Shown here: positions 1-34,593 of the stretch, in pieces | Numbering within the stretch: position 1 is the stretch's first letter | Layout of the letters: each line of letters opens with the position of its first letter | NCBI RefSeq assembly: GCF_014696875.1 | Contig: NZ_JACJQV010000178.1 | Location: 1-51,497 of the forward strand | From: Microcystis wesenbergii FACHB-1317 | GTDB lineage: Bacteria > Cyanobacteriota > Cyanobacteriia > Cyanobacteriales > Microcystaceae | Reading direction: 5' to 3' | Length of the DNA: 51,497 bases | Notes under the pieces: generated by a model | Databases searched by the model: none | Told to the model about the DNA's origin: nothing | Seen by the model: only the letters and a program-made list of their open reading frames with translations | Program-made: the position numbers and the translations under genes

Positions 1-300
1 TTCTCTCAATAACAGAGGGACAGAGGTGGTTAGCTGAACGTTGGGAAAAACTGATAGTTTTATCGACGTAAGAAGCAGAAAAATTAGCTAAATTAACAGG
101 ATGTACTCTCAGACAATTTCAAGAGAGATAGGCTTTTAGTGGCTTGGGAACAGGCTTTATCAATCTATTCATAATAAATATTGGCAGAAGATTAAAGATT
201 AGTTATTGTCACTAACTCTTTTGATTAGAAAAAGATAAACTTGAGAATTTTCATTCAAATTTATTGACTCAAAATCCGCTGTACTTAATTTAAATGAATC
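1..300. other. No supported gene; possible degraded coding remnant
   Basis: No intact reading frame is visible. Frame 3 of the plus strand reads as protein-like (starting LSITEGQRWLAERWEKL) but has two internal stops within about 55 codons, so it may be the 3' end of a dead gene that starts outside the window. I do not recognise the family. The rest is AT-rich and has no clear promoter or RNA gene. It could equally be chance coding resemblance. Confidence 0.2.
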
Positions 301-327
301 AACCCTACCCCTAACCCCCCTTCAAAA

Positions 328-542
328 GGTTTGATCCCCCCTAACCCTAGGGCTGATTCATTCTCTAGTTTGATTCCTTGTTTGTCTGTCTTCAATCGCT
401 TACGGGGCAAGCAAAGCAAGGCATTTTAAAAATTTTTCAGATATTTGTTCTGAGAAATTGACTGAAAACCTTGCCAGATAAGGATTTGATTGAATGACAT
501 TTGCGAGAATGAAACGACCCTAGGGTTAGGGGGGATCAAACC
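328..542. mobile_element. 165-bp MITE-like element (copy 1) inside a palindrome
   Basis: A 165-bp core (353-517) lies between two copies of CCCTAGGG (345-352 and 518-525). Outside these, the flanks 328-344 and 526-542 are perfect reverse complements, so the outer arms form a 25-bp perfect inverted repeat. The core ends also resemble each other (TCATTCTC against its complement). The same core occurs in the opposite orientation, with no difference I could find by eye, at 9618-9782. There, different palindromic arms surround it. The simplest reading is insertion into the centre of a palindrome, with CCCTAGGG either a target duplication or the element's ends. It has no coding capacity, so an unseen transposase must act in trans. 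It truncates the TPR-CHAT gene on its right. Confidence 0.75.
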
Positions 543-3169
543 CTCATTAGTAACAATAAACGCCATAATACTATCCCCTGCAATATACCATTCTAAGATG
601 GCAGTATCTTGATCAATTAAGGATTGAATCTCACTTAGAGGAATGCTTTCAAACTTTTGAGTTAAGCTAAAAGTGGGGTCTATGGGAGTTATTTCACGGT
701 CAATGAGTTGATTTAATTCTTGTTTTAAATAATTGAGGTGAGTATAGTCATTTAAGATGGGTTGTTTTTGTTCATCTGGGGTTAAAATTTCTCCCCGATT
801 GCGGGTTTGTTCTTGGATGGCTAACTGTTGTTCTTCCCCAATAATGGCACGACGGAGGCGATCTAATTCCGTAATAATAGTTTGGGGGATATCACCTTTA
901 GGATAGATATCTCGTTCGGTAAACAATTGGACTAGATAGCGGGTTTTGCTACGTTCAATGTATTCTAAAGCGCGATCTTTTTGATTGAGGTTGAGATAGG
1001 ATTGAACTATGCCATGATAAACATCCATTGCCTCTGAGAGGATTTCTTGTTGTCGTTGGGGGTTTAAGGCTTCGAGTCGGGTATTTTCTACGGCTTCGAT
1101 GGCTAAGTTGTAGCCTTTGATGGCGGTTTCCCAGTCTTCTTTAAAGTTAGCAGCATTCCCTAAGTTTCGTCCTGTTCCTAAACAGTCTATAGGAAAAGCC
1201 GTCGGGGTATATACTTCTAGTGACAGGTTATAAGCTGTGATCGCTTTCTCTAGATTATCTGGCTTTTCCCCTCTGATGCGAATTGAATAAGCAGCACCTA
1301 GATTATTTTGTGTCGTTGCCCATTTTTCAGGAAAGGCTTCACGGGTATATACTTCTAATGACTGCTTATAAGCTGCAATAGCTAACTCCAGATTATCTGC
1401 CCTTTCCCCTCTGATGCGATTTCTATAAGCATTCCCCAGATTATTTTGTATCATTGCCCATTTTTCAGGAAAGGCTTTACGGGTATATACTTCTAATGAC
1501 TGCTTATAAGCCTCAATAGCAAACTCCAGATTATCTGCCCTTTCCCCTCTGATTCTCTCACTATAAGCAGTTCCCAGATTATTTTGTGACCTTGCCCAAT
1601 CTTCAGGAAAATCTTCACGGGTATATACTTCTAATAACTGCTTATAAGCCTTAATAGCTAACTCTAGATTATCAGCCCTTTCTCCTCTGATGCGATTTCT
1701 ATAAACAGCCCCCAGATTATTTTGTGACCCTGCCCAATCTTCAGGAAACGCTTCACGGGTATATACTTCTAAAGACTGGTTATAAGCTTTGATCGCTAAC
1801 TCTAGATTATCAGCCCTGTCCCCTCTGATGCGAATTGAATAAACAGCACCCAGATTATTTTGTGTGTTTGCCCATTCATAAGAAAAGTCACGGGTTCTTA
1901 CTTCTAAAGACTGGTTATAAGCTTTGATCGCCGACTCTAGATTATCAGCCCTTTTCTCTCTGATTCTCTCACTATAAGCTATCCCCAGATTATTTTGTGT
2001 CCTTGCCCAATCTTCAGGAAAAGCTTCACGGGTTCTTACTTCTAAAGACTGGTTATAGGCCGTGATAGCTAACTCTAGATTATCTGCCCTTTTCCCAAGA
2101 ATGCGACTTTGATAAGCACCCCCCAAATTATTTTGTGTCATTGCCCATTGTTCAGGAAAAGCTTCACGGGTATGGACTTCTAAAGACTGGTTTAAAGCTG
2201 TGATCGCTAACTCTAGATTATCTGCCCTTTTCCCTCTAATGCGATCACTATAAGCATTCCCCAAATTATTTTGTGTCCTTGCCCAATCTTCAGGAAAGGC
2301 ATCACGGGTATATACCTCTAAAGACAGGTTATAGGCTGCGATCGCTAACTCTAGATTATCTGCCCTTTCCCCAAGGATGCGATTATTATAAGCAGTCCCC
2401 AGATTATTTTGTGTTTGTCCCCATTCATCAGGAAAAGCTTCACGGGTATGGACTTCTAAGACAGTGTGATAGCCTGTAATAGCAATTTCTAGATTATTAG
2501 CCCGACTTCCCAAAGGAAACTGTGAAATATCAATACATAAATTTTGAATCACCCCGGCAATAACTGCCACTTCTTCTGGTTTCCCTTGAGAAAACACCTT
2601 CCTAGCCCATTGTTGCAACACTTGGGCAAAAGTATCATCTAACAGATGTTGACGGCGTTGTAGGATAGGATAAACCATCGCAGGATCATTACTCTCTGCT
2701 TCTGCTTGTAAGACTTCTAATGGGACTTAGACAAAAAACAAATCGATAAAAGCCTCAACTCCAATCCCCGCTTGGGATTTACTTCGAGAAGCCCAAAATC
2801 GCTGAAACCCAGATAGATCAAGGAAAATCATAAATTGAGGTTAACCCTTTGTCCCGTAATGGTTTGAGCCTTTTTTGCTGCCCGAAAATGCCTAAGTCCC
2901 ACTAATAAAAACTCCTGATATTCCTCTATACTTCCCGCTTGAGGGTTGAGAAACTGCCCCAACCATTGCGCTATATCGCGTAACAAAGCAGCAGGATTAT
3001 TATTTCCTTGTTGTTCTAACCATGTTGCATAGTTTTCCATCACCTGCAAGAATTCGGGATCAATCAATTCCTGATTTGCTTGCAGAATATTATTGATTTC
3101 CTCACCATTAGTACAAGTGAGCAACTGTTCAATTAAATTAACATAAGCTTGGGCGCGTTGTTCATTCAT
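543..3169 (-). pseudogene. TPR-CHAT protein gene, broken by two insertions
   Basis: The gene reads leftward. Its 5' part (3169 to about 2902) encodes MNEQRAQAYVNLIEQLL..., an N-terminal region I recall from cyanobacterial TPR-CHAT proteins. A 181-bp MITE (2721-2901) then interrupts it. The rest, from about 2720 downward, has nine repeats of roughly 44 residues around the core QNNLGxAYxxRIxGxRADN, followed by a helical linker and the start of a CHAT-like segment (AILEWYIAGDSIMAFIV). The frame then runs into the palindrome and 165-bp element at 328-542 and stops at 426, so the caspase-like catalytic part is missing. Removing the MITE and one CTAA restores QEFLLEVLQAEAES in frame. Two shorter frames remain (3169-2828 and 2678-426), but neither can make a full protein. 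CHAT proteins are peptidase-like and some act in cell-death or defence systems; this copy should be inactive. Confidence 0.8.
2721..2901. mobile_element. 181-bp MITE with CTAA target duplication
   Basis: The ends are inverted repeats: TGGGACTTAG at 2721-2730 and CTAAGTCCCA at 2892-2901. Both sides carry CTAA (2717-2720 and 2902-2905), which fits a 4-bp target duplication. It sits inside the N-terminal part of the TPR-CHAT gene. Excising the element with one CTAA rejoins the reading frame exactly, which is strong evidence for recent insertion. It encodes nothing recognisable. The mobilising insertion sequence is not in the window, and I do not assign the family. Confidence 0.85.
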
Positions 3170-9373: not shown

Positions 9374-9445
9374 GCCGATGTAGCTCAGTGGTAGAGTAGT
9401 TGATTCGTAATCAATTGGTCGTGGGTTCAAATCCCATCATCGGCT
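9374..9445 (+). tRNA. tRNA-Thr, anticodon CGU
   Basis: A full cloverleaf folds from the sequence. The acceptor GCCGATG pairs with CATCGGC, the D arm is GCTC...GAGT, the anticodon arm GTTGA/TCAAT has loop TTCGTAA (anticodon CGT, reads ACG), and the T arm GTGGG/CCCAT holds TTCAAAT. The discriminator base is T and CCA is not encoded. A dispersed element begins about 40 bp downstream. Confidence 0.93.
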
Positions 9446-9482: not shown

Positions 9483-9868
9483 AGTCCGCCTGAATAAATC
9501 TAAAAACCTTGTTGGATAACACTTTTAGACTTTTTTAGACTTTTTGACCATCCAAAAGTGTCGGACCCCGGAGTGAGCGGAATGGGTAAAACCCCACACC
9601 CCCCCCTGCCCCTAGGGTCGTTTCATTCTCGCAAATGTCATTCAATCAAATCCTTATCTGGCAAGGTTTTCAGTCAATTTCTCAGAACAAATATCTGAAA
9701 AATTTTTAAAATGCCTTGCTTTGCTTGCCCCGTAAGCGATTGAAGACAGACAAACAAGGAATCAAACTAGAGAATGAATCAGCCCTAGGGGCAGGGGGGG
9801 TGGGGGCAGGGGGGGCCACACCCTACACCCTGCTCCCACCAAGAAACTTTTTCAGCAAACCCTAGTTA
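9483..9868 (+). repeat. Dispersed element related to 34234-34593, carrying a nested 165-bp MITE
   Basis: From about 9483 the sequence CTGAATAAATCTAAAAACC, then TTGTTGGATAACACTTTTAG, matches the reverse complement of the element at 34234-34593, as does GGTAAAACCCCACACCCC. The right end (9846-9868) reads AACTTTTTCAGCAAACCC and ends CTAGTTA, the complement of the TAACTAGGGTTTGC terminal repeat seen at 34234. The left terminal repeat is missing, so this copy is truncated next to the tRNA-Thr gene. A GC-rich hairpin inside it has been split by the 165-bp MITE at 9610-9790. Confidence 0.65.
9610..9790 (-). mobile_element. 165-bp MITE-like element (copy 2)
   Basis: The core 9618-9782 is the reverse complement of 353-517 over all 165 bases as far as I can read. 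It is bordered by CCCTAGGG at 9610-9617 and 9783-9790. The outer flanks again form a palindrome (a C-run plus CTGC on the left, GCAG plus a G-run on the right) but with a sequence different from copy 1. Identical cores in unrelated palindromes point to recent movement and a preference for palindromes centred on CCTAGG. Confidence 0.8.
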
Positions 9869-34233: not shown

Positions 34234-34593
34234 TAACTAGGGTTTGCGGCAAAAAGTTTTTCCTAGGGGTAGGGTGTGACCCCCCCAACCCCCCCCGACA
34301 TCGGGGGGGCAGGTGGGGTGTGGGGTGTGGGGTTTTACCAGTTTTGAGGTGGCCAATTACCTAATTTTCAGGGAAAAAGTGCCTAAATTTCCCCCCGATC
34401 ACTCCCATATCCAGCACTTTTTGATTGACAAAAGGTCTAAAAGTGTTACCCAACAAGGTTTTTAGCTTTATTCAGCAAAGTGTAACTAGAGTCTAGTCGG
34501 CACGAGCGATCGAGATTGGGTCATTCAGGAATCCACTGCTGCAAGAGTGCCTCCTAACTCCACCAACAGACTTTTTGCCGCAAACCCTAATTA
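34234..34593. mobile_element. 360-bp non-coding element with 24-bp terminal inverted repeats
   Basis: The left end reads TAACTAGGGTTTGCGGCAAA and the right end is its near-perfect complement (34570-34593, TAATTAGGGTTTGC on the other strand). The inside holds a GC-rich hairpin (CCCCCCGACATCGGGGGG), a TGTGGGGTGTGGGG tract and the segment TCTAAAAGTGTTACCCAACA shared with 9483-9560. It encodes nothing. The right end supplies the stop codon of the neighbouring gene at 34587. A shortened copy is at 9483-9868. No transposase for it is visible. Confidence 0.7.

Follow-up and report, generated by a model that had tools for sequence, protein, structure and literature searches.

A recently multiplied 175-bp MITE with the ends of an ISAs1-family insertion sequence in Microcystis wesenbergii FACHB-1317

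RESULTS

Microcystis is a genus rich in repeats. The window analyzed here is the whole 51,497-nucleotide stretch at positions 1 to 51,497 (forward strand) of contig NZ_JACJQV010000178.1 of the M. wesenbergii FACHB-1317 assembly GCF_014696875.1. Its left end carries the 3' end of an insertion sequence (IS), a short spacer, and a MITE in which the frame of a truncated gene ends; a second MITE copy lies near a tRNA-Thr gene (positions 9374 to 9445). The features are as follows.

1..307, plus strand: 3' end of an ISAs1-family IS (IS positions 1112 to 1418), 96.7% identical by blastn to a 1418-bp IS of the related genome G001 and cut by the contig start
3..71, plus strand: transposase C terminus, LSITEGQRWLAERWEKLIVLST then stop, by translation (last 22 codons); the 380-codon IS open reading frame has the same final residues
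308..347, no strand: spacer of 40 bp that separates the IS from the MITE and is inverted with respect to the orthologous locus
348..522, plus strand: MITE copy 1 (L016), 175 bp, TAGGGCTGATTCATTCTC...GAGAATGAAACGACCCTA
426..2678, minus strand: host TPR gene of 750 codons, cut short by the IS and MITE, with the end of its open reading frame inside the MITE
523..532, plus strand: right-hand target copy GGGTTAGGGG of MITE copy 1
9600..9612, plus strand: hairpin left arm CCCCCCCTGCCCC
9613..9787, minus strand: MITE copy 2 (L015), 175 bp, with the same letters as copy 1, inverted
9788..9815, plus strand: hairpin right arm GGGGCAGGGGGGG (9788 to 9800) and a further G-run repeat, of the strand type opposite to the flanking C-rich host DNA

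The two window cores read alike across 165 bp, or 181 bp with the CCCTAGGG borders included (positions 345 to 525; copy 2 inverted), as the preliminary description of this DNA had stated. The palindromic arms that it reported are also present, with perfect inverted flanks that extend 20 bp (copy 1) and 13 bp (copy 2) from the element ends. This core identity and these arms are far beyond chance. The CCCTAGGG borders do stand on both sides of the cores, but they are not a separate unit, since they consist of the last 5 bases of the element and a flanking CCC. The MITE itself is TAGGG-core-CCCTA, 175 bp in length.

The genome, a draft assembly of 5.04 Mb in 248 contigs, contains at least 40 listed matches to the core, a lower bound because 40 of 107 candidates were scored. 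Of these matches, 26 are full-length, each measuring 175 bp from TAGGG to CCCTA; 22 of them match the window copy at every base, and 1 to 3 base differences were counted in each of the remaining four. As is expected of a MITE, the element is short and multicopy (26 full copies among the 40 matches listed), is bounded by terminal inverted repeats (TAGGGCTGATTCATTCTC and GAGAATGAAACGACCCTA), and, being too short at 175 bp to hold a transposase, has no transposase gene of its own. Folded as a single DNA strand, it gave a z score of -2.56, with 3 of 200 shuffles equally good. With 26 full copies, 22 of them identical, it looks like the recently mobile, nonautonomous transposon that had been proposed. 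All 11 other genomes of the genus that were searched carry MITE relatives, but these are diverged (the best has 83% identity over the full core), and the burst therefore looks recent and lineage specific. Two relatives of 222 and 237 bp in the same genome, L133 (786-1007) and L134 (810-1046), have nearly the same ends and look older. Outside the genus, no match was found to a 28-base exact pattern in genome contigs, in a distant search of plasmids, to a 21-base exact pattern in viral contigs, or in a near search of phages with window positions 1 to 600, in collections from which records very near this genome may be absent.

Direct repeats abut TAGGG and CCCTA in 19 of the 26 full copies, with a length of 10 bp in 17 copies and 12 bp in 2 (examples are CCGTGACGGG, CCCAAACCCC, GGGGTTGGGG, and CGATGTCGGG). 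The count includes L026, for which three extra left-end bases (TAG) were set aside (18 of 26 without L026), and omits 14 of the 40 listed core matches, which are partial, mostly at contig ends, or diverged. These data establish a target-site duplication of 10 or 12 bp. The 8-bp CCCTAGGG duplication proposed earlier was rejected because the flanking triplet varies from copy to copy. G/C triplets occur at both ends of 18 ten-base-pair duplications (13 of the MITE and 5 of the IS), with the same base on both sides in 17 and CCC...GGG in one; two 13-bp IS duplications are also CCC...GGG. Duplications are lacking at seven copies: L001, which lies at a contig start and has 2 mismatches in 10, L005, L007, L015 (window copy 2), L016 (window copy 1), L019, and L024. 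At L004 and L026, an IS adjoins the MITE with only one target copy between them (10 bp; 13 bp in L026), indicating that the same site was struck twice.

If the arms were part of the mobile unit, the unit would be a longer element with palindromic ends. Relatives lack both arms together with the MITE at the copy 2 locus, and long C-run/G-run flanks are common to several copies, as such a unit would predict. However, flanks vary widely, those of L003, L011, L012, L017, and L018 being quite different; the duplications directly abut the 175-bp element; and hairpins of the same kind exist with no element within 45 bp. It is thus extremely improbable that the arms move with the element.

No transposase had been seen in the window in the preliminary description. 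Positions 1 to 307, which stand 40 bp from MITE copy 1, are nevertheless the 3' end of an ISAs1-family IS with ends matching those of the MITE, a likely mobilizer. Of the transposase gene, just the final 22 codons lie in the window; a 322-amino-acid part on contig C14 matches NCBIfam NF033564 (ISAs1; E value, 7.9e-73; 245 bits against a cutoff of 70), which identifies an ISAs1-type DDE transposase, and the enzyme also matches Pfam DDE_Tnp_1 with DDE_Tnp_1_assoc. The best matches with named hosts are from Microcystis; a Trichodesmium MAG has one segment at 95%, and Streptomyces matches are at 24 to 56%. The genome holds many TAGGGCTGTTTCATTCTC ends, several of them attached to a transposase. 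Its IS copies are broken at contig ends or truncated in this draft, and no complete copy of its own was seen.

The search for a full-length IS with the same ends, suggested earlier, led to the 1418-bp ISAs1-family IS, which is whole in G001 (one contig, 5,842,795 bases). There are 22 transposase matches in G001, of which 16 near-full ones were examined and 15 have both ends; 14 of these measure 1418 to 1419 bp, and L223 measures 1555 bp with another repeat nested inside. Direct repeats of 10 to 13 bp flank 12 of the 15 two-ended copies. No direct repeat was found at the other three (L222, L223, and L228) or at L230 of G010, and only one IS end was found at L226 (G001) and L229 (G010). For the IS copy in the window, the duplication is seen only when the spacer is turned back.

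The left end of the MITE has 17 of 18 bases in common with the IS, and its right end matches the left end of the IS at 86% over 21 bp. The MITE therefore has the ends of an autonomous IS that was seen in pieces in its own genome and whole in G001, and MITE and IS are alike at the ends only. Because the likeness is confined to the ends, we infer that the MITE is mobilized in trans, likely by the transposase of this IS, although another ISAs1 relative could be the mover. For the same reason, an origin of the MITE by internal deletion of the IS is unsupported. Among related MITEs of other genomes that were screened, a 10-bp repeat flanks few (L111, and L092 only when it is read as a longer, 230-bp element); the others, which are old and diverged, have short repeats or none.

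The IS and MITE copy 1 interrupt a gene. The orthologous site in G001, G002, G003, and G009 is free of IS and MITE and consists of two or three 30-bp repeats of the type TTTTGAAGGGGGGTTAGGGGGGATCAAACC; there is one unit in G004 and none in G010. In G001, the repeat run lies at the insertion point within one long open frame, which runs on into a CHAT domain that is absent from the window frame. At its end, contig C120 has the left half of the interrupted gene and then the 5' end of the IS. On the window contig (C88), the IS 3' end is followed by the spacer of 40 bp, the MITE, and the gene's right half. We infer that these two contigs hold the halves of one IS copy.

The spacer begins and ends with CCCCTAACCC (positions 308 to 317 and 338 to 347), the reverse complement of the target GGGTTAGGGG, and all of positions 308 to 347 is the exact reverse complement of DNA at L187 (G001), L186 (G002), L185 (G003), and L188 (G009). 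The reverse complement was not found at L189 (G010) or at L190 (G004, with its single repeat unit), and the spacer in forward orientation was sought at L185, L186, and L187 and not found. Comparison with the four relatives shows that the window spacer is in an inverted state. When it is turned back, the IS and the MITE each acquire a duplication of GGGTTAGGGG. The exact 15-base patterns CCCTAGGGTTAGGGG and GGGTTAGGGGTAGGG, which join the target GGGTTAGGGG to TAGGG or CCCTA, were found three times and twice, respectively, in the genome. Four of these five places are the IS 5' end (at the end of C120), the IS 3' end, the MITE left end, and the MITE right end, and all four junctions agree with the spacer turned back. 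The fifth, on C100, is another locus, where the preceding word ATGAATCAACCCTA resembles the IS 3' end. Since the spacer has an exact reverse complement in four relatives and the junctions agree after reversal, the best reading of the 42-bp palindrome at copy 1 is that the spacer inverted between the ends AATGAATCAACCCTA and TAGGGCTGATTCATT, which face each other; the sequence comparison supports this reading well. The IS and the MITE would each have inserted into one of two adjacent 30-bp repeats within a single gene, with duplication of GGGTTAGGGG in both cases. The 40-bp spacer that separates their opposed terminal repeats would then have flipped, perhaps by strand switching or by recombination at short inverted repeats. 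The microinversion itself is probably ordinary.

A perfect stem of at least 7 bp overlaps 14 of the 19 duplicated sites versus 4 of 149 generic sites, which are pairs of G or C triplets with four bases between them in a background that omits sites within 100 bp of element ends (p = 3e-13). When stems within 15 bp were counted, the numbers were 14 of 19 and 10 of 149, and with a shorter scored stretch they were 13 of 19 and 5 of 151, the wider stretch being what puts L020 in the hairpin group. The target word GGGGYWRGGG was hit 405 times across the genome, often as opposite-strand pairs about 22 bp apart. When sites were matched for this word, stems were present at 6 of 8 occupied and 16 of 23 free sites (p = 1.0; numbers are small, and a weak preference is possible). 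The occupied count refers to the shorter stretch (7 of 8 with the wider stretch, which adds L020), with which alone the free sites were scored, and the free sites lie in the part of the 405 hits that was examined and more than 45 bp from any element. In this comparison, no preference for dyads was thus detected once the local target word had been accounted for. Because the word-matched free sites are equally rich in hairpins, the preference is mainly for G/C-run words that happen to lie in hairpins, and a preference for the structure may or may not contribute. Hairpins such as CCCCCCCGACATCGGGGGGG occur without an adjacent MITE at window positions 34290 to 34309 and at many other places in the genome; a hairpin tally that counted overlapping loci was not taken as a copy number.

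The palindrome preference suggested by the preliminary description therefore holds as a pattern, 14 of 19 duplicated sites lying in or beside G/C-run hairpins, but the word-matched comparison gave it no support as a cause. The flank tabulation that it called for revealed flanks that differ widely between copies and, at the duplicated sites, are mostly but not always palindromic. Copies in nonpalindromic DNA, which it had named as evidence against palindrome targeting, were found at 5 of the 19 duplicated sites (L004, L010, L011, L018, and L025), where stems measure at most 5 bp; the IS to the left of L004 may hide a stem. Insertion would go into short G/C-run-rich sites of the approximate form SSSNNNNSSS, most of them within the C-run/G-run hairpins that abound in this genome, and would duplicate 10, sometimes 12, bp.

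MITE copy 2 lies within a second repeat family (CTGAATAAATC...CAGCAAACCCTA), at about positions 9490 to 9864, and a repeat similar to this host repeat is nested in IS L223 of G001. An empty palindrome was expected at the orthologous site. The flanks of copy 2 are in place in G001, G002, G006, and G008, with C-rich DNA between them, and the stem there never exceeds 5 bp. The flanks CCCCCCCTGCCCC and GGGGCAGGGGGGG are the arms of CCCCTGCCCCCCC-GAYRTC-GGGGGGGCAGGGG hairpins, which the genome also has at other places, more than 45 bp from any element; the hairpin center is thus missing at copy 2. The MITE would occupy the place of the 12-bp center of a natural hairpin, and in the simplest course of events insertions in both arms would have recombined or been collapsed in assembly. 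The copy 2 palindrome, too, appears to be secondary. Neither window palindrome therefore looks like the landing site that it was first taken to be: both copies lack a duplication, the copy 1 flank is inverted, and the copy 2 locus is stem-free in four relatives.

Both junction decamers belong to the set of ordinary target words at L005, L007, L015, and L024, and one does at L001 and at L019; neither does at L016, which is its own case. Because these decamers are ordinary target words, the data suggest that these copies began as ordinary insertions and that recombination or the assembly then removed the inner parts, in the way reported for hybrids of ISRm22 (PMC1525189). L019 fits the hairpin model only partly, since its right decamer GGGGGGGCGG is not a known target word. 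The layout CCC-MITE-GGG is present in 5 of the 7 copies without duplication, against 7% per copy expected from random junction pairing (p = 4e-5). This excess agrees with local events in GAYRTC-type hairpins, which run from C-run to G-run on either strand; the L003 hairpin is the opposite.

The flanks of L007 and L019 are each one locus in G011. The one-locus evidence for L005 is weaker, since its right flank is a many-copy repeat, and in G001, G002, and G008 the flanks of L024 are found at separate places. Recombination between distant loci was therefore rejected as the general cause of missing duplications, for copies 1 and 2, L007, and L019, and weakly for L005; it is kept for L024.

Cruciform targeting would explain the same copies by a transposase that recognizes an extruded hairpin, with, in copies such as copy 2, both element ends joined in one step to the arms of a single hairpin, the center lost, and no duplication made. 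The enrichment of stems at duplicated sites over generic sites is in its favor, as are the CCC-MITE-GGG excess, with flanks at one locus in relatives in four of the five cases (L005 being the weaker), and the similar layout of the IS copy L223 in G001. These observations are countered by the equal hairpin content of word-matched occupied and free sites (a comparison of small numbers), by the five duplicated sites with stems of at most 5 bp, by the spacer inversion, which accounts for copy 1, and by the junction words of L005, L007, and L015, which are those of ordinary insertions. We regard cruciform targeting as improbable. That the ISAs1 transposase in particular joins the element ends to both arms of an extruded G/C hairpin, replacing its center without duplication, is very improbable; if it were true, the CCC-MITE-GGG copies would represent a second insertion pathway beside ordinary insertion with its 10-bp duplication.

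An assembly artifact was also considered, in which short reads cannot span a 175-bp repeat and copies without duplication are collapsed pairs or chimeras. Eleven contigs begin or end within the element, the flanks of L024 are scattered in three relatives, and copy 2 could be a collapse; indeed, a collapsed double insertion would resemble copy 2 exactly. However, the flanks of copy 2, L007, and L019 are each one locus in relatives, and the one-contig genome G001 has a copy of similar layout (L223). In addition, a search for the exact pattern of the expected un-inverted IS 3' junction found it at no place in the assembly, so that the assembler would have had to invent the copy 1 junctions. An artifact of this kind is unlikely to be the explanation.

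DISCUSSION

The copy number, ends, and duplications of the MITE, and the ends that it has in common with the IS, are direct observations. They identify a new, recently multiplied MITE that belongs to an ISAs1-family IS; in the window, a copy of this IS lies next to it. Probably, the MITE was moved in trans by an ISAs1-family IS into G/C-run sites, and the window palindromes came later.

Direct repeats of the ISAs1 family measure 8 to 10 bp, and IS231A prefers GGG(N5)CCC. The system described here resembles ISAs1-family IS in that the IS transposase matches NF033564, DDE_Tnp_1, and DDE_Tnp_1_assoc and the MITE carries the IS ends; it differs in that the MITE is geneless and the duplications are 10 to 13 bp. 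Insertion specificity and direct repeats of variable length, as described for IS231A and the IS4 family (PMC2266710), are also features of this system, whereas the transposase family differs.

A Microcystis MITE described in strain PCC 7806 is 187 bp long and ISL3 related, with about 30 identical copies, an 8-bp repeat, and the ends GGCTCTTCG (PMC11448079). As that source presents it, the two are alike in being short and multicopy, with direct repeats and with ends common to a full IS of their own genome, and they differ in family (ISL3 there and ISAs1 here), in repeat length (8 versus 10 bp), and in their ends. Among the titles listed in literature searches of a single library, none concerned an ISAs1-driven MITE in Microcystis, a result that does not prove absence. 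ISPsy8, ISRm22, and others target repetitive extragenic palindromes, each at one fixed position, and hybrid ISRm22 copies with unequal direct repeats have been explained by intercopy recombination or adjacent deletions (PMC1525189). Abundant intergenic palindromes as targets and hybrid copies are common to both systems. The fixed position described in that account contrasts with the several positions seen here, in arms and center, and with the nonhairpin sites (PMC1525189).

Where short terminal repeats face each other, the spacer between them can be left flipped, and the perfect palindrome that results mimics palindrome targeting. In the interrupted gene, the IS/MITE pair splits the CHAT domain off a TPR-CHAT frame at a coding minisatellite. 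The MITE is a "parasite of a parasite," a geneless element probably moved by a common bacterial insertion sequence in a bloom-forming cyanobacterium, and its burst in a Microcystis genome now has a likely mover, target words, and a true duplication.
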